Shown here: piece by piece, positions 3,499-61,700 of the stretch
How the letters are laid out: every line of letters begins with the position of its first letter
Numbering within the stretch: position 1 is the first letter of the stretch
Assembly: GCA_948474755.1 (NCBI GenBank)
Contig: CAOLHI010000361.1
Span: 1 to 64,000, forward strand
DNA: 64,000 nt
Direction: 5' to 3'
Source: Ctenosaura bakeri
Taxonomy: Eukaryota; Chordata; Lepidosauria; Squamata; Iguanidae
The notes under the pieces: model-generated
What the model saw: only the letters and a program-made list of their open reading frames with translations
What the model was told of the DNA's origin: nothing
Databases searched by the model: none
Made by a program: the position numbers and the translations under genes

Positions 3499-4941
3499 GT
3501 CAGTAATATATAGTTAAAATTTAAATGCATCTCTAGTGTAATTTCATCTCTTTGGTGTCTTATATCTTTAGTGATGTGTTGTGTACTAGCCTGGCATCAG
3601 GAGTTTGCATCTGCTGTATTTGAGACGCTTAGAAGAATCCTGGATTTAGCATACTGCTGTGTTCCATACTACTGTGAAATGCTAATAGTGTTTACTGGAT
3701 TTTCTAGAATTACTAGACACCTTAATAGTATAATCTATCATTCTTGGGTAATTCTGTTTTTCTGGTTCAATCAGATGATTTTGTTGCAGATGCCCTCTAA
3801 CATCTCTTAAAGTTACACTAATGACGAGCTTTGCTTTCCACTCCAGTAGTTGAATGCTAATTACTAACAACAGAGTATCCTTCTAGTGAGTCAGTAATCA
3901 AGTAACCAAATAATTCAAAATTATTTGAATCAGTTTGTGATCTTGGAATTCTAGATTTTTGTTCCCTGAATTAATTGTCTGTCATCCAGTTGCTGGTCTC
4001 ATTGCCACTTGTTAGCATCACCCTTGGGAATAGAATTTAGTTAGATAACTTACTTGTCAGAAGTTCGTGGTCCTCAAAATAATTTTCTGTGTAACAGAAA
4101 GTCTGACCTCCTTTTCTAAAAAAAGAAAATAAAGTTCTTTCTAGCTCTTTCTAGCTGCAGAGAAAAATGTGTGTACTGTCTGGTAATTGTTGCTGAATTG
4201 ATCTGATGCCCATGTGGAGTGAGAAAAATAAAGATCTGTTTGGTACCTTTGGGTAGAAGTAGCAATAGTCTGCCCTTCTCCCTCTTGGTGTGGAATGCAC
4301 TGCATTTCTTACAGACATCTGTATTTGTTAAATCAGCTCTGTGTTTTGCAAAAATCTCTACCAGGATTATATACCAATCTCTCCTAATTTGAATGGGGCA
4401 GATTATGGAGCCTGGATAACATGGGCCAGTCTTTTTCAAGGTGTTAGATACAGTAACAGTGAGGCATTTTGATAGACTTCCAGTCTGAGATTGGGGAATG
4501 TGTTGTCCAAGACTCTCTTGACTCTTCTCCTGACTCCCCCAAATTGAATTTTGAGGGACAAAGAAAGAAATGCATATTCCAGAAGTTCCCAGGAATAGCA
4601 GATCACCCCCATAAAGGAGTTGCAGAGGCCCTGATACTGTTTAACATAAAAGGATTCCAGTTATTTTTTTTCTTCCTCCATTGTTTAGTCATTTTTGGCA
4701 GTCTGTGTGGTCCCCTTAATCCTAAGATTAGGAAATTGCCTCCTAAATCCAGGGAGGTTGCCCACACCTATTTCAGTTGACAATCAGCTGTTTTGATGGT
4801 GAAGTGAAATATACATCCTGTGGAAAAGTAGAAACTTCATTTTTTGGTATAGTTCAAAACTGAATCTGTTTTCATTCCTCTCATTTTTCTTGTTGCCTGT
4901 GTGAAAATTATCAATTAAATTATGTTTGCTCTTCATTTTAG
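3499..4941 (+). other. TRAK1: TRAK1 intron, no other feature seen
   Basis: This intron lies between the Milton-domain exons and has pyrimidine-rich 3' sequence before the CTTCATTTTAG acceptor. No classified repeat or RNA gene was recognised. The ORFs at 4116-4439 (minus) and 4469-4780 (plus) look like chance frames. Confidence 0.75.
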
Positions 4942-5258
4942 AAATGATGACAAGAACAAAAAACCTGGAACTCCAGGAACACCTGGTTCCAGTGACCTAG
5001 AAACAGCCCTGCGAAGGCTGTCTCTTCGAAGAGAGAACTACCTGTCAGAGAGGAAGTTTTTTGAAGAAGAGCAAGAAAGAAAGCTGAGGGAGTTGGCTGA
5101 GAAGGGAGAATTCCATAGTGGCTCCATTACTCCAACAGAGAGTATCATGTCGTTGGGAACTCACTCCAGGTTTTCTGAATTTACTGGATATTCAGGAATG
5201 TCCATCAGCAGTCGCTCATACCTCCCAGAGAAGCTTCAGATTGTGAAGCCCTTAGAAG
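4942..5258 (+). CDS. TRAK1: TRAK1 coding exon, GTPGTPG and LRRLSLRREN block
   Basis: This 317-base exon runs from acceptor CATTTTAG to donor GTGATAAT. It encodes NDDKNKKPGTPGTPGSSD, then LETALRRLSLRRENYLSE, a Glu/Arg-rich helix-prone stretch (FFEEEQERKLRELAEKGE), TPTESIMSLGTHSRFSEF, and finishes SRSYLPEKLQIVKPLEG. All blocks match human TRAK1 closely. The open frame continues past the donor to 5407, but that tail has no coding character and the next exon (11301) restores the known protein, so the exon end is placed at the donor. It leaves one base of a split Gly codon. Confidence 0.96.
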
Positions 5259-7655
5259 GTGATAATAAAGGGCCTCGACCTTTATCTGTTCTCCTTGGTG
5301 ACTGTCTGTGGTCTCTCCTTCATCAACAAGAATCAGGAAACCTTTGCAACACATACTCCTTTTACTTTAGAGATAGCCACCCACGTTGCTTGTTTGAACT
5401 CTTCTGAAACTAAAGTTATTTGTTTTTGTTTTTTTGAGCAAGCAACTCCCAGAGTAAGGTTAAATTGTGCTATGTCTCTAATATATTTCAGGAGTATATT
5501 CATATAGTTCAGTAAATTCATTTGAATTCTCAAATTAATTCACACATTTATAGAACACTGCTAAAAGAGAGAAAAGGTAAAACTGTATTGGTATAGCAAA
5601 GAACAGTAGAGTCAAGTTATAATACATTAAGTTGGAACATGCGTTAGACAGTTGCAAAAATTTTTTGAACATCTATGCAAGCTGAAATATTTCATACATC
5701 ATGGTTTTGCCACTAGATATCTAGACAACAGTCTAGATACATGTATCTGAATTGTTCCACTGATTTCAAAGTTGCTGTTACAAACCAGTGCACAGCATTT
5801 TATGCCTTCAAGACAAGGATGTCCGTATTCTTGTCAATTTCCAAAGACACTGAAGATGTTTAAAGCACTTAAAAGCCGTAGTCTTTCACGCACAATGTTT
5901 CACTTTTGTGTTTGGTTTGCAGTCATAGGATTTCTAACTTTCAGCTCTGTCCATTGGCTGTTTTCCATTTTTTATTCCCTAAACTATTTTGAGTTGGTAC
6001 ATGATCCATGTAAGACATGCTTCATGTTTTTCTTCCTTATGGGGAAATGACTATCCTTTTATTTTGTGTGAAAGTGGCAACTACTATCAACTCAGATGAG
6101 TCAAGAAGTAATATCCTCTTCAGATTTCATAAAGTGCCTGTTCCAAATTCTGGAAATACTTTAGGGAAAGAATAGCAGATAACCAACTTTAATTTACCTA
6201 TTATTAGCATTGTAATTGGTTTCTGTCATTCCCTTATTTCTCTGCTTTCTTCTTCAATAAACTTCCACTCTCCTTCATATTCTCTGTCTCTCTTGCTTTT
6301 TCACTTTTCATTTATTCCTTTGTGTATTGACCCCCTTTTCTTCTGTCTATAACCTATTCATGTCACTGGCCACCTTCTTAGTTTAAAATATTTACCATGC
6401 ATTTCTTTTGAGGGCTGGAGAATTTTGAATCCAAATATTCTGTATAATTGCTGGTTGCTATAATACATTAAACTAACTGAATCCAAATATTCATACACAT
6501 ACACATACTGTAGAAGAAATCTCACTTGGGAGTAAATTGTTCTTGAAACTGAGAAACCATCTTGAAACAAAATATTTTACAGCAGATACAGATATGCCTT
6601 CTCCATCTCCATTCTTCCAGTTCTGAACTGTTGTACTTTACATAGTGTCATCAGTATTACTTTTCACTCTCTTAAAAAAATGCAAGTACAAGGAACTTTA
6701 GTGCTTGGTTAAATTGCTTCCAAAATATAGTTTAGGTGGCTGCACAATTTGCAGCCCAAAAATGATTCCCCTATTGCAGGTAAAAATTAGGGAAGCCTTC
6801 ATTACAGAATAGGAAACAGTATGACCACTACCTCTTTTTTTTAAATCAAACTCTACTGTAATCTTTTTTGTTTGGTTTAGCCTTCTTAATATCTTTTCTC
6901 ACTATTACCAGCTTCTAGAAATGTATGACCCTCCACATGTTGTTGGACTGCAGTTTCTCTCTTTTTTCACTATTTGGGTTGTTGACTAGGACTAATGGAA
7001 ACTGATGTCTTAACCACAGCTGAAGGATCACATATTTCCAAAACTATTCTAAGAGAATGGTAGAACCATATAGAGAAGAAGTGATTTGTTTCTAGTTTTA
7101 TAATACACCTTTGTTAGTTAAACTGTTTAGCAGTGGCGTAGTTACTGAGTCAGGAGAAAGACATCTGTTCAAGAGCCACAGAATATATGTTCAAATGTTC
7201 ATTTGCCATTGGGTAGTTTTAAACACTTTTTATACACATACCCTGATACTCAGTTGCCCTGTCATTGTACATGCAAAAACATAGACACCTAGAGTTTCCA
7301 TACATATCATATGTTTGTACTAATGTACTAGTACAGAGAATGTACTAATTTCCTTTACCATTGTCTCACTCCCATCCTGATGGGTAGTTACTGTTGCTGA
7401 CACATCCCCACCACAAAAATAAACTTAGGACACACAGTTTAATGAGATAACATATTTGGAAGCTCTGGGTTCTGGTTGGTTATCCAGAATCATTCTTGAA
7501 TAGATATGTATCAGTTAAACTCTTATTTATGCCCCTAAAAAGTTAGGCCTAATTAAGTTACTTCCTTTAGAAAAAATGTTGCAAAGATCTTACATGGAAA
7601 TATTCAGATATCGGCATATTTTACAGCTGGAGGGAACTTAGTACCTCTACCTGTT

Positions 7656-10231: not shown

Positions 10232-11300
10232 CCTTTTATGGGGTTGTCCTACTACTTTCTTTGAATTTAGAAATTACATCTGTCTTAGAACCTCAGTCTT
10301 GAGTGTGGAGTGCAATGCTCTTAAAGTGATTATTTTTCATTTGTGTTACATGTATTATCCTTTTTATGTATATACTGTATATTTTCTTACCAAAAATGTT
10401 TTCAGCCCAAGGATGAATTCACAGGTATAGTAAAAAGTACTTTATGTATTAGTAAGTTTTGTGTAAATAATAGTGTGCTTGGCAATCAAACAAGTAGAAT
10501 ACAAAATTACTATTTAGATATTTATAGAGCTGATGTAGTTTGTTCTGTTTTGTAGAACAGTTCTTTCTCTTAACTTCTAGTAATTAGTTCTAGGCTATGT
10601 TCATAGCATGTCTCCTTTCAGTTATTTTTCCTCAAAAAATTTAGAAATATAGAATCATAAAATTATAGTTAGGAAAGATCCAAGGGTGGTTAAGTATAAC
10701 TTACTCCTAGTGCAGAGATACACAGCAAAATCATTCCTGACAGGTAGCCCTCTAACCTCAGTTAAAAAACCTCCAAAAAACCTCCTTTCAAAGATGTCTT
10801 CTTGTCTAGATATATTTGATGTCCATATTTTCTGACCATTTGCCAATATGAACATGAGTATGATTTGTTGTATTAAATATCCATATTTGTTCTATTGTTC
10901 CATTGTGCCATTAGTTTTTATTCTAGGAGACTTTTAAGTTTTTAGGTCTACATGACTTTAAGTCCATGGAACTTGACGTTCTGGGTCTATAGGACTTGAA
11001 GTTTAAAAATACAAATAAAAACAAGATAATAAAATTTTAAAACAAATGTTCAGACTTAAGCCTTACAGCTGGCCTTTACCCTATTAAGAATATGAACAGC
11101 AACAGTTCATGCTTTTCATCTAGCCCGCTAGCATTTTTAATGAGTTTTATAAGTAACATTTTAATATCCAGATTCCTTATGGGGGGATTTTTTACTAAAC
11201 AGTTTAAACCCTGTTAGTGTTTGAAATGAATGATGGGATTTAAACAGCTTTGGAGGGAAATCTTCATTCTGACCATTGTTTTGGTTTTTTAACTGTCCAG

Positions 11301-11516
11301 GTTCTGCCACTTTGCACCACTGGCAGCAGCTTGCTCAACCTCACCTGGGAGGCATTCTTGACCCACGGCCTGGTGTTGTTACTAAGGGCTTCCGGACTCT
11401 GGACCTTGACCTGGATGAAGTATACTGCCTTAATGATTTTGAAGAAGATGAGTCAGGTGACATTACATACAAGGGCCTAGCTACCTCGACACCGATTCAG
11501 CACACCGAGACCTCAG
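11301..11516 (+). CDS. TRAK1: TRAK1 coding exon (spliced form)
   Basis: This exon begins after acceptor TAACTGTCCAG and completes a split Gly codon from the previous exon. It encodes SATLHHWQQLAQPHLGGILD, then PRPGVVTKGFRTLDLDLDEV, YCLNDFEEDESGD and LATSTPIQHTETS. These blocks match human TRAK1 almost residue for residue. In the long form the exon ends at 11516 before GTGAGAGG, leaving one base to join the exon at 19015. The same donor can also be read through (see 11301-11755). The domain lies C-terminal to the Milton region, within the segment reported to bind Miro in mammals. Confidence 0.95.
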
Positions 11517-11755
11517 GTGAGAGGTCCCAAGCACAAGTGACTGTTTCAGACACCGAGAATTACCCAAGTCGCTCTCAGGCTTTCCCAGAGGAGATGCAGG
11601 AACCCGCGACTGACGATGATGAGGGGTCTGGTGAGGGAACCTCATTAAGTCCAGCACAGCTGCCATGTTTGCAGGATGTTGATTATTGGGCCATTCTCAC
11701 ATCTCTTCAGAGCAGCATCCACAGGGTTGCTTCGTGTGTAGCTTCTGCACAATAG
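11301..11755 (+). CDS. TRAK1: TRAK1 alternative terminal exon (read-through, short isoform)
   Basis: The frame stays open through the 11517 splice donor for 79 further codons to TAG at 11753-11755. The extension reads GERSQAQVTVSDTENYPSRS, then an acidic patch (ATDDDEGSGEGTSLSP) and YWAILTSLQSSIHRVAS. From memory, the short human TRAK1 isoform ends in a closely similar tail with SPEEMQEP, GSGEGT and WAILTS motifs, so this looks like a conserved alternative 3' end made by not using the donor, rather than chance read-through. The product would lack the C-terminal third. A possible polyadenylation signal is the ATTAAA near 12544. Moderately sure. Confidence 0.75.
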
Positions 11756-24218: not shown

Positions 24219-25806
24219 TATAGTGCAACAGCGAAAATGCTGTTTTAATGACTAAAGATGTGTGTGTTTGAAGGGATGTCTAGGTTTTTGTAGCTTGAGA
24301 GAGAGATTTAAGTGAAGACAAGCCAACCTATTCAATTGATACTCATTTTGAGATTTGTTCAACACATTTCCCAGTTAGTGTGAAGGCTTGTGAGGACATG
24401 TCAATGCAAGCTGGAAATGCACTAAGTTTTTCATGAAACAAATTTAGAATATGAAATATGCTGATGGAAATATGTTATTAGGCTGCGTTTCGTGAAGTGT
24501 ATCTGAAATGCCCCGTAAATTTTGTTAACATCCCATGGCTGCTTTTTCAAGGAGTTGTACCATGAGTAAATTCTACTGCAAAATATTGAGGTCTTTCATA
24601 GACCCTTGTACTCTTGCATATATTTTTAATATTTAAAGAATATCCACCCACAGAGGACTTTTAACTTTCACGAGGAGCTTCTTTTGTATCAGAGCAGCTG
24701 CTTCCTTTTTGGACCATTGCCAAGCGAAGAAATGTTACTACAAACACAGCTATTCATAGATACCAACAGTGAACTATGTATTCATTGTACCTATAACAAT
24801 TGCTGTTATGACTGTGAAAATTTCAATATGTATACACTCTGAGGCTTCTCAGGAGGGATGGGACATACAGGGAACCTCCAGACACTGAATTAGGCCCAAG
24901 GTTTAGAGATTCCAATCCTTGATGCACATCATGTTTCACAGTAATGGTTCCTCAGATGTTTGTGTCAACATAACTGTTCTACATACAGCACAATTGCCTG
25001 TATGAACCATCCTCTTTATGCTGTTTGTGCTAGTCTTTTCTTTTACTGCACAACAAAAATTTTCATCAATATACCTAAGTCTAAAATAGGGTGATGCTGT
25101 ATTCTGGAAAAAATATATATTGCACAGCAACTCCAACCTGGAACTCACTTAAGTCAGTTGCAATGTTGTTGCAGATTTTGATAGGCATCTATAGTAAAGC
25201 AGTGCATCATGGTGTTTCTCAACCCCAGTCAGGATATTAAATAGCCTTGTAATTAATGTTTTGCCAGAAAAAATAATTTTTGTAATTAGAATACACAGGC
25301 AGTTGAATTGTCAACCAGTTTTCTCCTGAAATTAGTAATTGGAATGGGTGGGTGGGGAGATTCTATAATGGTAGAATTGAACAATCATCTAAACCCGCAT
25401 GTATTTTAGAGTGCATATTGCTTGTTTTGCATTATTTTTATGACATTGAGATTTGATTGATGTTTTCTGACCTGTTGCTTGGAGTTTGTTTGGAGGGAAG
25501 GGGACGTCAGTGGATTTGTAGTTTCTCTGTGATTTGAAATTAATGCCCATCAAGCATGAGAAGTGTGAGTCACCAACATAACATGAAAGCTAATATTTAT
25601 TATATAGTGAGAAGGTAAGAGTTCACAACTTGCACTAATAATAACCAGCCTTCTTTTGGATGGGTAGGTATCAAATGCTCTGAGGATCATACACACGTTC
25701 TACAGGGGTTGCAAATCTGTACATCTTACAAGCATCCTGAATCATTTTGAGCACTAGGATTTTCAATGAAGGGCTTAACTCAACTTTTTGGTTTTCCTCC
25801 TTCCAG

Positions 25807-26605
25807 CCTTAACGCAGCACCTACTCCAGCTTGTAGCAGCGCTGGCAATTTGAAAGGCACCCCGGTGGCTACCCCATGCACTCCTCGGCGTCTGAGTTTG
25901 GTGGAATCCTTCACTAACCTTCGGGAGTCCACAACTACAATGAGCACATCCTTGGGGCTTGTGTGGCTACTCAAGGAACGAGGGATATCAGCGGCAGTGT
26001 ACAACCCTCAGAGCTGGGACAGAGCTGGCAGGAGCACCCTCCTGAGTGCATACTCTCCCAAAATGGCTGCCATTCCTTCCACTCCTCCAAACTCACCTAT
26101 GCAGACACCCTCCTCTTCCCCACCATCTTTTGAGTTCAAATGCACAAGTCCCCCTTACGACAATTTCCTTGCTTCCAAACCAGCCAGTTCCATTCTGAAG
26201 GAGGTGAGGGGCAAAAAGAGTATCAGGAACAGTGAGAGTCAGACTGACGTGTCTGTCTCCAACCTTAACCTAGTGGACAAAGTGAAAAGGTTTGGAATTG
26301 CCAAAGTAGTTAGTTCAGGGCAACCACAAGCTCCTCCGTTAACTGATGAACATGGACCTCAGCTCTGGGGGGCACAAAGGCCAGTGAAAGCATTTGTTCC
26401 TGGAGGCCTGGTGCCAGAAGGCCTGCCCTTGGGTTGTCCTGCTGTAACAAGTACTATTGGGGGCATTCAGTTGAACAGTGGCATTAGGAGGAACCGAAGC
26501 TTCCCAACTATGGTGGGTTCCAGCATGCAGATGAAAGGGCCATCAACATTAACCCCTGGCATCCTAATGGGAGCTAAGCTCCCCAAACAAACAAGCTTAC
26601 GATGA
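25807..26605 (+). CDS. TRAK1: TRAK1 last coding exon and stop codon
   Basis: This 799-base terminal exon follows acceptor TCCTTCCAG and ends at TGA 26603-26605. It encodes the C-terminal 265 residues: SLNAAPTPAC, VATPCTPRRLSLVESFTN, STSLGLVWLLKERGISAAVY, IPSTPPNSPMQTPSSSPPSF, KCTSPPYDNFLASKPASSIL, SESQTDVSVSNLNLVDKVKR, and the end MGAKLPKQTSLR, all as in human TRAK1. The stretch around VSSGQPQAPPLTDEHGPQL is the variable part. It is Ser/Pro-rich and probably disordered, with many SP/TP sites. In mammals the C-terminus is needed for mitochondrial targeting. The frame is open upstream to 25766 but that part is intron. Confidence 0.97.
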
Positions 26606-40475: not shown

Positions 40476-41150
40476 ATATCTGTGCTCCCACTCAATTAAG
40501 GTAATGATAAAAGTTTGTACTTTTTACATTTCCATTCCATCCCGCCTCACTAATTGCATCCTCCCACCCCAAACATGTACTTAAATATCTGCCAAAAGAA
40601 GCAATTTTCCATGCAGCCAATGAAATGGGCTGCAATTTGCAAATGAAACTCATTAGGCTTTTAAGAGTAGATGAGGGTCAATTAGAGTAGATTGCATGTG
40701 CCTGTTTTTTGCCTGTTGCTTTTGTGGCTAAGGACTCCACACAGCTCCCTCCCCCCAGTTTCTATCCAATCTGGCAGATTTGTTCCTCCCTTAACATCAT
40801 CTCTGTACTTCTCAATGTAAATCCTTTTTTCATCCTCACCCTTGTAGCTGCTGTTTTGTTGCGCTGATAGAGTTTATATGGTAGAGATAAATAGTATTCC
40901 TCTCTTATGCATTGTAGTGTAGTAGGATATGCAAATAAACAGTTCAAATGCCCATATCGTACTCCTAAAACAAATAAATATGGAATTAATCCACCAAAAC
41001 AAGGCCTTATTTTTCTTTATAATTCTTTGGATCCATTTTCCCTAAAATATGAAGGTAGAACCAAGCAGCTGCCTTCTTAACTTGTCTTTCCTCAGCTCTT
41101 TCTTTCCTCAGAATAGTATCATGAGGTAGCTGGCTCAGGATGGAGAGCCC
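40476..41150. other. intergenic, no gene seen
   Basis: Nothing recognisable beyond AT-rich sequence. Confidence 0.5.
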
Positions 41151-41154
41151 TGGA

Positions 41155-42015
41155 GCAAGGAATTGCACTGTTCCCCTCCTCCTGGAGGACCTCTACTCTG
41201 CTATCTTGCCTCCTTTCCTGCTGTGCCCCTAACTTGCCCAACCCCCATTTCACCCCCACAGACTCACCTCATATCTCTGCTTTGATCCCCTCTCTTGTTC
41301 TTTATACTCTGCTGGCTGTGCTCCTTCTTTCACATCACATCTTCTTTCCTTTCACCTTGCCTCTCTTCATGACCACCTGTCTTATTCCTTGCACCCTGCC
41401 CCTCTCACCCTTCCTTTCCTCCTTTCCCAGTCCTCCCTCACCTCATTCACCCTTCCCTCATATTGATTTCCTTGCCACATATAACAACCTTGTGGTGCAC
41501 CTCTCATTTGCCACTGCTTACACCTCATGGTCTCTTGTTTCTCCTCCCTCACCTCAGAAGACTGTGGTGCACCTCTTGCCCGTTTCACGCATACCACTGC
41601 TTCTGCTGTTCACTGTCTGGGGTCTCCTACTCCCTCCCTTACCTCACCCTCTCAAAGTGACCTCTTGCCTGTTCCATGCGCATCGCCACTCACATCACTC
41701 ACTTTATTGTGCTCCACTTCCCCACCTTGTCTCTTGTACTCCTCTTCTTTGTCTCACCTTGCACTTTCATGGCACTCCTCTTGCTTGCTTCATGTACACT
41801 GCCACATGCCCCGTGCACTCTCCCATCCCTCCTACTCACTCTCTTGCTTCACATTGTGTCCCTTTGTTGCTTCTTGCATTCTGCCCCTCACTTTGCTTGC
41901 TTGCTCCCCTCTCCTACTCAGACATTCCCACTTCTCATCTCCCACTCCAGCAGTTTTTTCCTCCATCGCTTCTTACACTCTACTGTTCACACTCCTTTGT
42001 CTTATCTCATTCCTG
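41155..42015. repeat. pyrimidine-rich decayed minisatellite, left block
   Basis: The plus strand is dominated by C and T, with recurring phrases such as TTGCTTGCTT, GTGCACCTCT, CACTGC and CTCACC at roughly 100-bp spacing. Long frames on the plus strand (323 codons at 41234-42205, plus two others overlapping) are Ser/Leu/Pro/His-rich in all three frames, which shows that composition, not selection, keeps them open. Confidence 0.75.
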
Positions 42016-42019
42016 TACA

Positions 42020-42530
42020 ACTGATAAATCAAACAAACAAACTGAATATCTCCCAGCTTGTTACTTAATTCCAGGCAGTAAGCAAAGAGTCATAAATAAA
42101 GTCCAACATAAAGTCCAGCAGGGTTTCACGGCAAAGGGAATGTCCAAGGTCAATCTGAGCATTTGTCAAGGCATCCAGCAAGGTAGCAGGTCAGATAAAC
42201 TCTGACAACTCCTGAAGGGGAAGGAGGCCAGCTAAAAAGACCCAAAGCCTAGTGCAGCTATGCCTTGATTGATTGTTGTCGGTTATAAATTTGGAAAGAG
42301 TGACACTGAGTCTCTCTTTGCTACCTGTGCTGTGTGAAGCTGGGTCTAGGTAAGTGTTCCTCTATATCAGAAGAGGCAGGACTCTCTGTTGAAGCTGGCA
42401 CCATCCCCTGTTCTGGCACTGTAACCTCTCTCTGTACAGCAGGCCCTGGCATGCCTTCTGTTTCAGCCTCTGGCATCCCCTCTGCTTCAGACTCTGAGTC
42501 AGAGTCCATGCTCTGGAAGGAGGGCATGAC
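42020..42530 (-). mobile_element. possible LTR-retroelement fragment inside the minisatellite
   Basis: This 0.5-kb insert is not pyrimidine biased and splits the CT-rich array. The minus frame at 42321-42527 has a Glu/Pro/Ser-rich peptide (DSDSESEAEGMPEAETEG) that I have the impression of seeing next to reptile LTR elements. No boundaries were found and the class is unsure. Confidence 0.3.
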
Positions 42531-46367: not shown

Positions 46368-46446
46368 CAACAAATGTTTAAAGTCACCATGAGGCAAGGA
46401 ATGTTCTGTTTATTCCAGGATTCATAATCTGAGCAGAATTTTCACA

Positions 46447-46452
46447 TTTATT
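46447..46452 (-). terminator. CCK: candidate CCK exon 3A polyadenylation signal AATAAA
   Basis: TTTATT on the plus strand reads AATAAA on the CCK strand, about 640 bases after the exon 3A stop; a second one lies at 46409-46414. The matching places in copy B are T-runs. An ATTAAA just after the stop (about 47058) is shared by both copies but is very close. Candidate only. Confidence 0.4.
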
Positions 46453-47091
46453 TCACAAAGGAAAGTAACCTCCAAAATAACATAATATGCACCAGTGATT
46501 CATTTCACTGTGGCAATGAAAATTCATTTCACAGGAAAGCTCTTCTCCTATGTTGATATTTGTACAGATTGAGTGAGAGTCAAATGTAGTCATGCTCAAC
46601 AGTAAACCCCTTGCAATCAATAAGACTTAGGTTAGTCCTGACTAACTTGCAAACAATGAGTCTAAAGTAAATATGCCTAACTCTGGATCCAACCCAGTGT
46701 TTAAAAGGGAGCAGACTGGTAGACAGATAGATAGAACTCATTCTTTCAAAAGTTGTTCGGATTAGTTTATAGCATATAGTTGTCTTGGAAGTAGTTTCCT
46801 TTTGCAGTAAATTGTGGTACTCAGCAACATTTGCTATGACAAGATAACTGAGGGATGAGTGAAATACTTTCGTATGTCTACAATAAGCTGTAAGAAATTA
46901 TAGGAGAAAGTTTTTTTCCTTGAAAATTCTGCATATGTTATATAATATATATTGCATTGTATAGTTTTACAGACTTTTTTTTACATCAAATACATTTTTT
47001 TAAACACTGATTTGAAAAGGATGATGATTTTTTTTTCTGTACAGCACTGGGACTTTGATTTTAATTTCTTTTAAGCATAGTTTAGCACTTT

Positions 47092-47222
47092 TTAAGAAGT
47101 GTACTCATATTCTTCAGCACTGCGGCGTCCAAAATCCATCCAGCCCATGTAGTCTCTGTCTCTTATCCTGTGTGTAGGGTCAAAATTTTGTAATCCCATC
47201 ACAGAGACCTTTCCAGTAGAAC
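47092..47222 (-). CDS. CCK: CCK exon 3, copy A: canonical cholecystokinin peptide
   Basis: This terminal exon encodes the bioactive end of preprocholecystokinin, the gut and brain hormone that acts on CCK1/CCK2 receptors. It follows acceptor CCTTTCTTTTCAAAG and joins exon 2 in phase 1 (split Gly). The residues are [19 protein letters not shown], then [19 protein letters not shown] and YEYTS, stop TAA at 47092-47094. Seen directly: the sulfation tyrosine in DRDY, the octapeptide DYMGWMDF after a processing Arg, the amidation donor Gly followed by Arg-Arg, and the SAEEYEY tail, all as in chicken and human CCK. With exon 2 the precursor is 125 residues, between human (115) and chicken (130). Confidence 0.97.
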
Positions 47223-47821
47223 CTTTGAAAAGAAAGGATGTGAAACATGAGTAAATAAATGAATTCATAAAATAATGATAGCAACAAACAGTCCTATGAC
47301 ACTTTAAATCACAGGATAGAAAACCTGTGATCCCCTAGATGATGCTGTTCTCCCAGTTCTATTGGCTCAAGCAACTGCCAATAGTTAAGAGCTGTGGTGC
47401 ATCCCTCATCCCAGCTTTAAATGACAACATTCACTTCAGTGTGCCATGAGCATTTAGAGATTATTGTACCTCATCAGATATGGGAGAGTTCAATCTACCA
47501 GTGGATTGCTGGGTGTGGAGATCCCTGTGAGCCCCACACAACTCCTGGAACTCTTTTTCAACTGACCTGGTCTTAACAAAATTACCTTTTTTGCACTTTC
47601 CACAAAAGGAACAAGAAATCACACCTTTCCAAGATGTTTTTGGAGAACTACAGTATAAAGAAAACATTTTACACAGTAAAGGGCTTCAGTAACACATTCA
47701 CAACTGCTATATATTCATGATCTCCATGTAGCTCCTAGTCTATGGATTGTGAAAGTCTCCTAAATTCCATTTACTGGTAAGCAACCACTGACATCAATGG
47801 GGGATCCATTCCTCTGCTTAT

Positions 47822-47970
47822 CAGGAAGCAGCTATCTGATGTTCCCACCTCCTCCCTCTTGTGAGTGATCTCTGGCATGAGGGGGGTTTGTGACAGGGGT
47901 CTTTTTTCTGCCTGTCACAGAGCAGATCACTCACAGGAGGGAGTGGGAACATCAGGCAGCTGCTTCTGTA
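47822..47970. repeat. palindromic element in copy A only
   Basis: The left arm GGAAGCAGCTATCTGATGTTCCCACC... and the right arm ...GGTGGGAACATC-like...GCAGCTGCTTC are inverted copies of about 50 bases around a loop rich in G and T. It lies in the ~1 kb absent from copy B, so it inserted after the duplication or was lost from B. Confidence 0.6.
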
Positions 47971-49499
47971 TTGACAGAAGAAGAGACCCCAGCTGATCCC
48001 AGTGACTGATTATTGGTATGTGAGTTTTGGGGAGGTCATGCCAACATTCAGTATGTAGCAATGATCTTATGGTGCTACATAGTACACAATGGTCATATAA
48101 AATGCCAACAGGGGACATTAGTTAAATTCCACAAATAAATGTGTACATTGGTCAGAATGCATTTAAAATGTGTGTGAATTTCTATGCAGAAAAAAGGAGT
48201 CTTGCAATCTGATACGAAACAAGTTTGGAAAGAAAATGAAGGTGGGACTGAGAGAAATGCAATGAAATAAAAACTGAGATATATTTTTCATTCCTGCCAG
48301 AAAGGTGCATAGATGGTAGACTTGCATTTATGATCAGTTCTTTGGTTGATTTGTAGGAAACTGGAAAAAGTTTCTGACTCTTAACAGCAACAACTAAGAA
48401 CTATTCCTTCACCCCTGCAAAAAAACAGCACCTAAGATGGGGAACTAGAACTTCTTAATAAAAGGACTAGTGAACTGGATTCTTTTAAGGATTGCAAGAT
48501 CCCAGGTTAAGTATGTGCTCAGAGTTTTGCTGTCCATAATATAACCACATGGTTGAGCCCTTCATATGTACCTATATCCAGATGCAGGATTGTAGAATTC
48601 TAAACTTTCTTTAAAAAACTAGATCTTGCATATCTGAGATCTACCCACCCTGTGCCACCACCACTTATCACTCAACTGTAGTCAACGACAACATCCAGTC
48701 ATTAGAAGTTGTTAAGCCTCCAAATGCAAATATGTTCTATCTCTGACCATTCTTTGCATAAACCTGATGTGAGTGATCACTTTGTTATGACACTGTTAAT
48801 AGATATTGTTAACAATTACTTGTTGCGACACACAGTCTTGGTCAAAGCAGAAGGAACTGTCAAACCTGTAATGAATACCAGTTCTATTGCTTCAGTGGTT
48901 TATCACTATATTCTGACTGAGTACTCTGACACTAGAAAATGCAATGCCACACCAATATTGTAGAAATTTTTCTGCCCAGGTTTCTATCTGCCAGTCCTGA
49001 GATGTAATAAGGACCCTCACTTTGTGGGGGTTAGGTAGGCACTCTCTTTTTGACTACTTTTGCTGTTTCAGTTTAGCAAATCAAACAGCCATCATTGTTG
49101 CTTTCTCCTCTGCTTACTCTCCTTGCCCTTGTGCAGCCTTAAGTACTTTTTGCAAAAGAGCCTGCTGCTCTTTGAATGCACCAATCTGCTCCTGAATCTG
49201 CCTCTGAGTGGCTGGTAAGTAGAACCCAGATGATTTTTGCTACTGCTTTCTGCTTGCACTTTTCTCCCACTTCCATTATCAGAACACACTTCAGGATTGC
49301 ACTAGGATTGGGGCCAACCTGCTCAGCCATCTTAATTCCCCATTCAACCAGAGTAATCACCCCATTTAACACTTCAGCCACTGGGACCCAGGCACTGGTG
49401 CCTGGCCATTTTAGGATGTATCTCTGGCCAACATCCTGTCCAACTGACTTATTTTCTCACTAGGAAGGCATTGTTCTTGATCCAATTGTTTTGCCAATT

Positions 49500-49925
49500 G
49501 CAAGAGGTTCTTTTAGGTCCAAGAGCAATCATTATATTAGTGGGAAAAGTTTAAAGCTTTATTGCCAACTTGCATAAAACAGGGATATATGGCAAAGATA
49601 CAGGGAAAGCAGTGGGGCAGTCTCACACTCTCTGTTCAGCTGCCGGGAACCCCAGGACAGCAGCAGAGAGATCTCATCACTGGCCCACAAGTACACAGCA
49701 CCACCATGGTCCAAGGTGTATGTTGAAGCTCACTGATCATAGTTTTATTTATACATGCAAAGGTCACTCATCACACTTGTCTTTGAAGGTCGTGCTCCCA
49801 TCTCTTATCAACTCTTCTTGGACACCTCCCCAGATCCAGATGTGTATACAAAGGATGTGAAGACAAGGGGTCCTTCCCAATTTTTCAGGCGTGGACCCTC
49901 CCAATAACTAACAATGCTTACCAAA
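49500..49925 (-). mobile_element. possible solo LTR of an endogenous retrovirus
   Basis: On the minus strand a TATA-like TGTATAAATAAA (about 49745-49760) is followed some 190 bases later by AATAAAGCTTTAAAC (about 49550-49565), the spacing and order of promoter and polyadenylation signals in a retroviral LTR. The boundaries are guesses: I could not find clear TG...CA ends, a primer site or gag. The 80-codon minus frame at 49139-49381 is not recognisable. Confidence 0.35.
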
Positions 49926-50040
49926 CCTGTTTGAAGCTTAACTCAGTAGCTTCTCAGGCATGGGCACAGATACAGCATACAGCCAAACTCTTCCTGCAAT
50001 AGTCTTTTGACTCCTTTCCCATACATGTGCCTATAATATC

Positions 50041-50100
50041 CTACATATATTTTAAATTTAAATTTATTTTTACATTTAGATTTAGATTTACATTTAGATT
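50041..50100. repeat. TTTAGA/TTTAAA-type simple repeat
   Basis: Hexamer-like AT-rich units such as TTTAAATTTAAATTT and TTTAGATTTAGATTTACATT. Confidence 0.75.
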
Positions 50101-50729
50101 GCTCCCAATCTTCTCATTGCTGAGATATCTTCTCATTGCTACTACCTCATTTATTTTCCCTCTAGCCCATAGATGAATCAATGTTAGGTGGTTGAGGTCA
50201 CTTTGCCTTCCCAGGAGACTTGAGGGCATTTGGGGGTGGGATATTCCTTTCTGAAAAACTTTAAAATTCTTTTTGAATCTTAGGGGCCACCAGAACAGCC
50301 CTGGAGATCACAAGTGGTCCAGGGCCTACATTTTGCTCACCCCTGCTCCAGCCATAGCAACATAACTTCCAACTCTAGCACGGGGTGGGGAACCTTCAGT
50401 CCTGGAGTTGAAACTGGCCATTTAGGGTTTATTTAATTAATTTATATTCCATGTTTCTCCCACAGTGGACCCATAAAGGTTCACCAGCTGGTCACGATCT
50501 GTCCTCATGATACAATCCTCTGAGAGCTTCCCATCTTTGGTATGGGTTTTTCCTCCCATTCTAAAAAGGTTAAATGCACCTCCTATGCCTTATTTACTGG
50601 CAGTTAAGAGCTTTAAACCAAAAATATGCTGTCATTTTTGGTCCCACCCTTTTGCCTTTGCAGTGGAATTCATCTCTTGCTCTAATATACTTGGGTGTCA
50701 GTGGGAGTGAGCAGTTCATCTTGCACTGC

Positions 50730-52090
50730 AGAACAAATGCATAAGTCACCACAAGGCAAGGAATGTTCTGTTTTTTCCCCAGGATTCATAATATGAGTAG
50801 AATTTTCATATTTTTTTCACCAAAGAAAACATCATAATATGCACCAATTATTTTTGTCTGGCTTAAATTTTAAAAACTGTAGCCAAGAAAATGCTCTTCT
50901 ACTGTGCTTATATTTAAATGTACAGATTGGGTTGAATTCAAACTTGCTCAAACTTGCCATGCTCATCAATAAACCTCTTGCAATCAATAAGACTTAGGTT
51001 AGTCTTGACTAACTTGAATACAATAGGTCTAAAGTAAGTATGCCTAACTCTGGATCCAACCCAGTGTTTAAAATGGGGCAATCTGATAGACAATTAGACA
51101 GAACACATTTTTTTGAAAGTTGTTCACATTAGTATATAGTATACGGTACACTTGAAAGCATTTTCCTTCAGCAGTATATTGTGATACTCAGCAACAATTG
51201 AGGGATGAGCAAAATACTTTTAATAGATCTACAATAAATTGTAAGAAAGTATAAGAGAAATATTTTTTTGACAATTCTGCATATGTTCATTTAATATATG
51301 TTGCATTGTATAGTTTTACAAATTCATGTCAGTTACATGGGGTTTTTTAAACACTGATTTGAAAAGGATGACTTTTTTTTTTTTGGCACAGAAATGGGAC
51401 TTTGATTTTAATTTCTTTTAAGCAGAGTTTAACACTCTTTAAGAAGTGTACTCATATTCTTCAGCACTGCGGCGTCCAAAATCTATCCAGCCCAAGTAGT
51501 CCCTGTCTCTTTTCGTGTGTGTAGGGTCAAAATTCTGTAATCCCATCACAGAGACCTTTCCAGTAGAACCTTTTTTTAAAAAAGGAAGTGATATAGAAGT
51601 AATAAATAAATGAATTCATAAAACAATGATAAAACAAACAGTCCTGCTTCACTTTAAATCAGAGGATAGAAAACTTGTGTCCCCCCCAAATTACCTTGTT
51701 CTCCCCATCCTATTGGCCCAACCAACAGGCAAATGGTTGGGAGTTGTGGTACAACATGTTGAAGTCTAAAGGTTCCTAATCCCAGCTTTAAATGCCAACA
51801 TTCCTTGTGGTCTGCCAGAGGCATTTGTAGACAAGTATCTATTTCATCAATCTACCCATAGATCACTATGTGTGGAGACTCCTGGAGGGGCACATGTGGT
51901 TCATGGAAAACTCTTTGACACACCTTGTCATAACAAAAATAGCTTTTTTGTACTTCACTTTGTACTTACAAAGGAAACAAATCTTGCTTCAAGAAATCAC
52001 ACACAGTTCTCTGTCTAAACTTCATGTGAGATATTAACTTGTTAATATCCTTTCTGACATTGTTAATAGACACTGCTAATAATCTTTCTG
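50730..52090. repeat. segmental duplication, copy B (contains CCK exon 3B)
   Basis: This is the partner of 46368-48830; see there for the shared landmarks. The CTTGCAATCAATAAGACTTA dispersed-repeat segment (about 50975-51060) is in both copies, so that insertion is older than the duplication. Both copies have the same orientation and start about 4.36 kb apart. Confidence 0.85.
51439..51569 (-). CDS. CCK: CCK exon 3, copy B: variant cholecystokinin peptide DYLGWIDF
   Basis: This is a second terminal exon, 131 bases like copy A, same phase and same stop context, with no frameshift or premature stop. It reads [43 protein letters not shown]. Against copy A there are six base changes: two silent, and four giving Arg to Thr and Ile to Lys before the RDRD, and Met to Leu and Met to Ile in the octapeptide. 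Kept are the tyrosine with its acidic neighbour, the Arg before it, Trp-x-Asp-Phe, the amidation Gly and Arg-Arg. The acceptor CCTTTTTTAAAAAAAG has an A-run next to the AG and looks weaker than that of copy A. It is either an alternative terminal exon or an unspliced relic. Confidence 0.8.
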
Positions 52091-59109: not shown

Positions 59110-59358
59110 CTCTTCGGGTTTGCTGAAGGTATTTGGCTAACAGAGCTCCAAGGTTGGCTTTCTGATCCACGGTGCCATCTACTCGCTGGATAGACTTCCC
59201 TGAGGCTGAGGTACGGATGTGCCGGTGGTTTTGGAGCACGCTCTGCTCCAGATCAGTGGCCATGGGATTCTCATTGTGAGAGCCAGATGTCTGCTGCCCT
59301 GAGGAGCTCATGGACAGCACAGCCAGGAGGAGAAGGAGACAGATCCCACTATACATAG
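59110..59358 (-). CDS. CCK: CCK exon 2: start codon, signal peptide and propeptide
   Basis: This exon holds the ATG (59354-59356) just two bases after acceptor CCTTTTCCTCTCTAG, and ends at 59110 before donor GTATAAAT, one base into a Gly codon. It encodes 82 residues: signal peptide MYSGICLLLLLAVLSMSSSG (cut probably after this), then QQTSGSHNENPMATDLEQSV, NHRHIR, and KANLGALLAKYLQQTRR. The match to chicken preproCCK (MYSGIC, QQT.GSHN.NP, LGALLAKYLQQ) is strong. The frame runs on to 59048 but that part is intron. It can splice in the same phase to either exon 3B or 3A. Confidence 0.97.
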
Positions 59359-60496
59359 CTAGAGAGGAAAAGGGAAAAACATGATGAAAGTCCTGAATGG
59401 ATAGATAGATGGATACAGTTCTGAATTTACAAGAGGAAGGACTGTGCTTACAAAATGAAGATTCAGACTGTATTGCTTTTGCCTGTTCCTAGCCAACTTA
59501 AAGATGCTTTGGGAGAAATCTAATCCATCACAGATAACTCCCACTGAGAGCCTGTAAGCTCTTCTTTTTCATTACGTTTCATGACAACAACATGCAGACA
59601 ACATGATTTAAAGTTCAAAGCGTTCCATCACGCTTTCCTTTCCCTGGCTGAATTATGTAACATCTTGCCTAATGAAGAGATCTGAAGATCTTGAAAGATT
59701 GCACATGTCTTTTTTTTTTCTTTTCCTTTTGGCCCAATAACAGTATTGCCACAACATGGATTCTAAATGGCTGTTGTTTCCAAACAATCACATATCATGG
59801 GCGCTCAGTTACATGAGAAAGAGAAGCAGAGAAGTATACAGAGAAGTATACAGTAGTTGGGACTGATGATGGTCTGAGCACAGAAAATCAATCCAGAGCA
59901 AATCTTTTTTAGTGGAAGAGTTAAACCCCTTTTGTGACACATCACTTTGTTGAACTGAAGTAATTCATTACATTCTCTTTTGCTTGACTTTTTAGGTAAA
60001 ACAGAATGCAGTGTCTGGAGTGGAGGGGCAGCGGCTTTTCACCCTTTTATAAGTATGGTATGTTCCATTTTGGAAAGATAGTGAAAGGTTTACTTCAGTA
60101 TTTTTGTGATTATTTATCACTGTTCACCTTTTCATACCCTAGAAAAATAAATGGTGTTAACTTCATTATGAGACAACTTTTGTGTGAAACAAAATGCAAT
60201 TCCCCCAGATTGTGTAAACTGTGTAAATTTCTCTGGAGTAACAAATGCAAATTAGAAACAGATTGGAATGACTTGATTCTCTTGGGAGAAAAATGCCTCT
60301 TGTAGCCACCAACTTGGCTGTGAATAAGAAAGTGATTTAAAGGTACTGATCTGTGGGAAAGGAGTTTCACCATAACTAACCATAGGTGGGTTCATATGCA
60401 AACCTACCGGACTGATAGATAGAGAGAGTGAGAGTGAGAGAGAGATGTCCTTTGTGAGGATGCTTTGCATCAGAGAGAAAAACGATGTGTCTTGAA

Positions 60497-61565: not shown

Positions 61566-61626
61566 CTTTGAAATGAAGTGCAGATTCCTGCTGTACACCA
61601 GAGAGAAGAGGCAGCCTTGAGGCGGT
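61566..61626 (-). other. CCK: CCK exon 1 (5' untranslated, start approximate)
   Basis: The exon end is set by AAAG|GTAGGA. The start is inferred about 30 bases after the TATA-like box. It is non-coding, as exon 1 is in known CCK genes; the translated part begins two bases into exon 2. Confidence 0.7.
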
Positions 61627-61650
61627 AGCTGAGCCCTTCAGACCTGCCCC

Positions 61651-61657
61651 TTAAATA
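61651..61657 (-). promoter_or_regulatory. CCK: CCK TATA-like box (TATTTAA)
   Basis: TATTTAA on the minus strand, about 30 bases before the inferred start of exon 1. Confidence 0.65.
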
Positions 61658-61700
61658 GTCTGGCTCAACAATGGGAAGAGTGGTGTTTGTTTGCACAGGT

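Follow-up and report, generated by a model that had tools for sequence, protein, structure and literature searches.

Two hormone-coding terminal exons in the cholecystokinin gene of the iguana Ctenosaura bakeri: a candidate second cholecystokinin made by exon choice

Cholecystokinin (CCK) is among the most conserved of vertebrate hormones, and in the vertebrate CCK gene an exon 2 specifying the signal peptide and propeptide is followed by one terminal exon specifying the hormone. Here we describe a stretch of 64,000 nucleotides (nt) from Ctenosaura bakeri (assembly GCA_948474755.1, contig CAOLHI010000361.1, positions 1 to 64,000; hereafter the window), the minus strand of which carries a CCK gene that follows the same plan, except that its one exon 2 is followed by two intact terminal exons of 131 bases each rather than by one. 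The distal exon (3B) encodes the canonical hormone and the proximal exon (3A) encodes a variant, DYLGWIDF.

Several described systems resemble this arrangement in part. In CALCA, as would be the case here, use of the proximal terminal exon ends the transcript and skipping it gives access to the distal exon, and in both genes it is the proximal signals that are weaker (the poly(A) site in CALCA, according to PMC3647115; the splice acceptor, as it appears, here). The iguana gene differs in that its terminal exons are recognisable duplicates with near-identical products, the alternative use of which is here a proposal. Exclusive choice among tandemly duplicated exons is likewise a known arrangement (PMC9013439), and SNAP25 exon 5 (PMC2581893) and the terminal exons of Drosophila pip (PMC9013439) are adjacent homologous exons that serve as alternatives, as we propose for 3A and 3B; no peptide-hormone exon was seen among the examples consulted in those two papers. 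Finally, PMC3731216 describes cck-derived caerulein genes of pipid frogs, in which peptide exons are tandemly repeated with almost no divergence and which form a cluster that, like CCK here, adjoins TRAK1. Those are skin-secretion genes, whereas here it is the hormone gene itself that is affected, and its terminal exons have diverged. A first-pass annotation of the window knew of no described vertebrate CCK gene of this layout. Among the open-licence papers listed by our searches, we likewise saw no CCK gene in which the terminal exon is duplicated, and no such variant core.

Location and translation of the two terminal exons bore out that annotation in that both possess an AG acceptor, are in phase 1 and end in a stop codon at the same position, and in that exon 2 is single in the window and common to both. 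Joined to either 3A or 3B, exon 2 gives an open preproprotein of 125 residues that matches the Pfam family PF00918 (Gastrin/cholecystokinin; E of 1.9e-45 with 3A and 3.4e-49 with 3B). The exons show the features of a tandem exon duplication, being adjacent, homologous, in the same phase and 95% identical, with flanks that are duplicated as well, and their anatomy also fits that of a CALCA-type gene, each terminal exon having its own acceptor, stop codon and ATTAAA hexamer 27 nt past the stop. A search of the whole genome with exon 3B (1,904,890,459 bases in 8006 contigs), which scores the best candidates only, returned two places, namely, 3A and 3B. Within the window, a degenerate 26-mer for DYMGWMDFG with at most three mismatches also found two sites, as many as were found in none of 100 shuffles.

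Going beyond the first-pass annotation, we found that 3B is the canonical exon and that the changes lie in 3A. The 3B product is an ordinary CCK in which Asp-Tyr, the WMDF core and the Gly-Arg-Arg amidation site are all present, and over the compared hormone and tail stretch it shows a single difference from the Sceloporus protein, in which the last residue but one is Ala instead of Thr. Among the matches listed, the named CCK proteins most similar to it are those of Phrynosoma (90%) and Sceloporus (88%), in agreement with a pleurodont lizard. Exon 3A differs from 3B at 6 of its 131 bases, with no gap; two of the differences are synonymous and four change an amino acid (R>T, I>K, M>L and M>I), and comparison with the proteins of relatives assigns all four to 3A. 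They cluster in the hormone region and leave the amidation site, the Asp-Tyr context and the tail unaltered, such that 3A encodes DYLGWIDF-GRR with its processing signals kept; one Arg is lost, and a Lys-Arg pair has arisen two residues ahead of the octapeptide.

Lacking WMDF, the predicted 3A peptide does not qualify as a CCK in the strict sense, and we class it only as a product of the CCK gene that resembles CCK. At the first Met of the octapeptide, two skinks and a girdled lizard have Val and Rhineura has Thr (P0006, P0008, P0012 and P0019), the latter as in the frog peptide caerulein. Leu, the residue encoded by 3A at this position, is present in teleost CCK (P0121-P0123), including that of the white sea bream, and the gastrin of the same fish, DYQGWVDF, has Val at the second Met (both from PMC3527491). 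Thus, WMDF is not universal in the wider family, and a branched aliphatic residue does occur within it. With Leu on record at the first of these two positions and Val at the second, it is plausible that DYLGWIDF-amide would be active. A search with residues 83-125 of the 3A product scored 12 candidates, and no protein with the 3A core was found among the sequences compared, a negative that is nearly uninformative because the database was clustered at 90% identity, so that a 3A isoform, ~97% identical to ordinary CCK, could be hidden within a cluster. One protein, P0014, shares words with the 3A query yet is absent from the 12 scored candidates.

Both terminal exons lie in copies of a duplicated block that align with an E of 0.0, with a further upstream piece at 66% identity (Table 1). 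The size of at least 1.3 kb first assigned to the block is roughly correct, but in copy B the two pieces are separated by a further ~1.1 kb (48738-47599 on the minus strand, where copy A has 41 bases at the matching place), so that either B gained sequence here or A lost it. In the downstream flank, 119 of 581 aligned sites differ (20%; corrected distance, ~0.24), as do 121 of 395 in the upstream flank (31%; ~0.39), and the two flanks together contain 18 gap openings. At published squamate rates, these distances would place the duplication roughly 65 million years ago or earlier; a duplication of that age should occur in other iguanids and perhaps in other pleurodont families. The 20-31% divergence rules out a recent or allelic duplication or an assembly error, and a retroposed or processed copy is ruled out by the fact that flanking intron was duplicated as well. 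We concluded that the duplication is real and old and is not an artefact. Downstream of each exon (51073-50977 and 46591-46833, minus strand) we also noted a stretch, beginning CACTGGGTTGGATCCAGAG, in which 35 and 28 consecutive columns are identical; it is as conserved as parts of the exon and looks like an old repeat common to both copies.

The exon itself is far less diverged than the sequence around it. The difference from the downstream flank is significant (Fisher P = 3e-6), and when the flanks were scanned in 772 overlapping windows as long as the exon (131 columns), none had six or fewer mismatches, the lowest count being 12. We simulated a neutral 3A in 40,000 runs, taking half of the distance measured downstream: frame, AG and freedom from indels were kept in 9.5% of the runs, six or fewer changes were seen in 0.3%, and all of these were seen jointly in 0.065%. 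The simulation presupposes that the two copies evolve at the same rate without gene conversion; given that clock and no conversion, a neutral 3A is unlikely. Furthermore, the low divergence has a sharp boundary at the acceptor, with 50% identity over the final 30 bases of the intron (26 aligned) versus 95% for the exon, which favours selection over conversion. At the acceptor end, then, conservation follows functional units. It does not clearly do so at the 3' end, where the sequence past the stop has diverged much like the flank, although the first ATTAAA and a later run of 29 columns are identical in both copies. Taken together, the pattern of divergence suggests that 3A was retained by selection.

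We consider selective maintenance of 3A, as an alternative terminal exon making a second, variant CCK, to be the best-supported explanation, at what we judge to be an even chance of being correct. Among the ancestors of the iguana, an ancient tandem duplication of ~1.3 kb would have provided CCK with a second hormone-coding terminal exon, and the distal exon, 3B, would have continued to give ordinary CCK. In the pre-mRNA, exon 2 would be spliced to 3A, with cleavage after the ATTAAA of 3A, or else 3A would be skipped and 3B used. The 3A product would possess the signal peptide, propeptide, Asp-Tyr context, Gly-Arg-Arg and tail of CCK and would yield DYLGWIDF-amide. Of this, the exon structure, the coding capacity and the excess conservation of the exon are observed, whereas the splicing, polyadenylation, processing and function of 3A are inferred. 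The reading of 3A as an internal exon of a 3A-3B transcript was judged unlikely, as no good donor was seen by eye past the 3A stop.

A number of observations weigh against retention of 3A as a hormone exon. Its acceptor looks the weaker of the two (CCTTTTTTAAAAAAAG, with a score of 1.0, versus CCTTTCTTTTCAAAG, with 6.2, for 3B; percentiles 90 and 99 among 4546 AGs, on a frequency matrix), and its polypyrimidine tract has diverged from that of 3B. WMDF is present in all 123 CCK representatives compared (the best 120 of 268 passing proteins plus 3 from the search with 3A residues), where 3A has WIDF. Four of the six exon changes alter the protein (dN, the nonsynonymous divergence, is 0.040 and dS, the synonymous divergence, is 0.079), so constraint on 3A is not tight. 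The joint neutral probability rises to 0.11 at a distance of 0.05, such that the conclusion requires the flanks to be a fair clock. At synonymous sites, too, divergence is low (2 of ~27 sites, P ~0.06), which hints at some gene conversion. Lastly, between the stop and the presumed downstream element, 20 of 109 aligned sites differ (18%), much like the flank, which means that there is no clear constraint on the poly(A) region as a whole.

These signals also bear on how the two exons would be used. No AATAAA lies within 900 nt after the 3A stop, whereas 3B has AATAAA at two sites within that distance. The weaker 3A acceptor and the presence of a canonical AATAAA near 3B alone lead us to expect that 3B would be the default exon and that 3A would be used at a low level or in restricted tissues. 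Thus, of the earlier proposal that mutually exclusive terminal exons give rise to two preprohormones, the anatomy fits and the divergence favours retention of 3A, but the weaker acceptor leaves equal use of the two exons unsupported. Fox-type TGCATG sites are associated with work on CALCA; neither acceptor has one in the 1 kb that precedes it, and those on the minus strand between 46 and 60 kb are at 59596, 59040, 58016, 53028 and 49759.

The main rivals to retention of 3A by selection are an intact-looking relic and gene conversion. As a relic, 3A would be unused and would be intact by chance or would have lost its function recently, after a long useful period, its decay first showing in the weak acceptor and the altered WMDF. 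The diverged polypyrimidine tract, the lower acceptor score, the absence of a core kept by all of the representatives, the preponderance of protein-altering changes and the lack of a nearby AATAAA would all fit. However, neutral drift since the duplication would rarely leave so intact an exon, as the simulations show, the frame is unbroken, and the Asp-Tyr, Gly-Arg-Arg and tail parts of 3A are untouched; we regard a relic as unlikely, though a serious contender. Gene conversion from 3B could instead have kept 3A similar while 3A had no function or only an occasional one, and the low synonymous divergence relative to the flanks, together with identical runs of 38 and 46 columns within the exon, would be in keeping with this. 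Yet the 30 intron bases preceding the acceptor are only 50% identical, versus 86% at positions -31 to -111, and a conversion tract would not respect the acceptor boundary; moreover, the four amino acid changes clustered in the hormone region persist in 3A. Conversion as the explanation therefore seems to us improbable. We give still less credence to the idea that 3A is an RNA-processing brake on normal CCK output, or encodes an inactive or antagonist peptide rather than a second agonist: a proximal terminal exon with its own ATTAAA and an altered WMDF core would suit such a role, but a full coding frame and a preserved amidation site are more than a brake needs. An assembly artefact or uncollapsed haplotypes are effectively excluded, because the flank divergence far exceeds allelic difference and the window lies inside a contig of 992,678 bases and contains no N, even if the ND1 and ND2 frames, which appear broken in the mitochondrial contig, indicate that the assembly may hold residual indels. 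In that contig (C7330:4500-7500), there is no open frame of 200 residues at the expected positions of ND1 and ND2 (genetic code 2) and cytochrome b is intact; the broken frames probably reflect residual indel errors there. Over 346 residues, the cytochrome b is 100% identical to that of Ctenosaura bakeri and 99% identical to that of C. oedirhina, in line with a spiny-tailed iguana of this group.

The coordinates of the locus are collected in Table 1. The promoter region includes elements of the kind that CCK promoters carry.

Table 1. Features of the CCK locus and its duplicated block, in window coordinates
Feature	Position	Strand	Basis
Shared promoter and noncoding exon 1 (approximate)	61566..61660	-	Read by eye
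TGCGTCA element	61708-61702	-	By eye
TATA-like TATTTAA	61657-61651	-	Read by eye
End of exon 1, donor AAAG/GTAGGA (slash, exon-intron boundary)	61566	-	End by eye, donor located computationally
Exon 2 (coding from 59356; specifies signal peptide and propeptide; donor G/GTATAA; phase 1 end)	59110..59358	-	Each joined product matches PF00918
Intron, -31 to -111 of 3A (86% identical to 3B counterpart, 81 aligned)	51600..51680	-	
Exon 3A, proximal, variant hormone	51439..51569	-	Alignment, translation
ATTAAA, candidate poly(A) signal of 3A, 27 nt past stop	51407..51412	-	
Exon 3B, distal, canonical hormone	47092..47222	-	Alignment, translation
ATTAAA, candidate poly(A) signal of 3B, 27 nt past stop	47060..47065	-	
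AATAAA downstream of 3B	46452 and 46414	-	
Duplicated block, copy A	50732..51955, plus weak piece 52083-51996 (aligned to 48816-48739)	-	Alignment
Duplicated block, copy B	46369..47598, plus weak piece 48816-48739	-	Alignment

Beyond the 3' end of CCK, open frames on the plus strand at 4919-5404, 11273-11752 and 25751-26602 are convergent with it. The first contains a Milton domain (E of 1.2e-46) and is read as TRAK1; the other two, which have no Pfam match, were judged by eye to be TRAK1 exons. Between 40001 and 42000, the GC skew is -0.31 and the AT skew is -0.20, and long C/T-rich open frames occur on the plus strand at 41117-42202. A scan of the window with Rfam gave no family at the gathering score, and a sequence search of PDB gave only two matches, both unrelated, each with an E above 0.4.

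We propose, tentatively and at somewhat less than an even chance, that in iguanas and, given the age of the duplication, probably in other pleurodont lizards, a single gene yields two cholecystokinins through choice of terminal exon, one of them with the methionine-free core DYLGWIDF-amide. If so, a CCK-type hormone would have diversified through splicing and not through gene duplication, in a parallel to calcitonin and CGRP in which the two hormones are still recognisable as duplicates. DYLGWIDF-amide might then have a shifted receptor preference or be resistant to methionine oxidation, and a second CCK chosen by splicing would be a natural experiment on the core residues that CCK receptors require.

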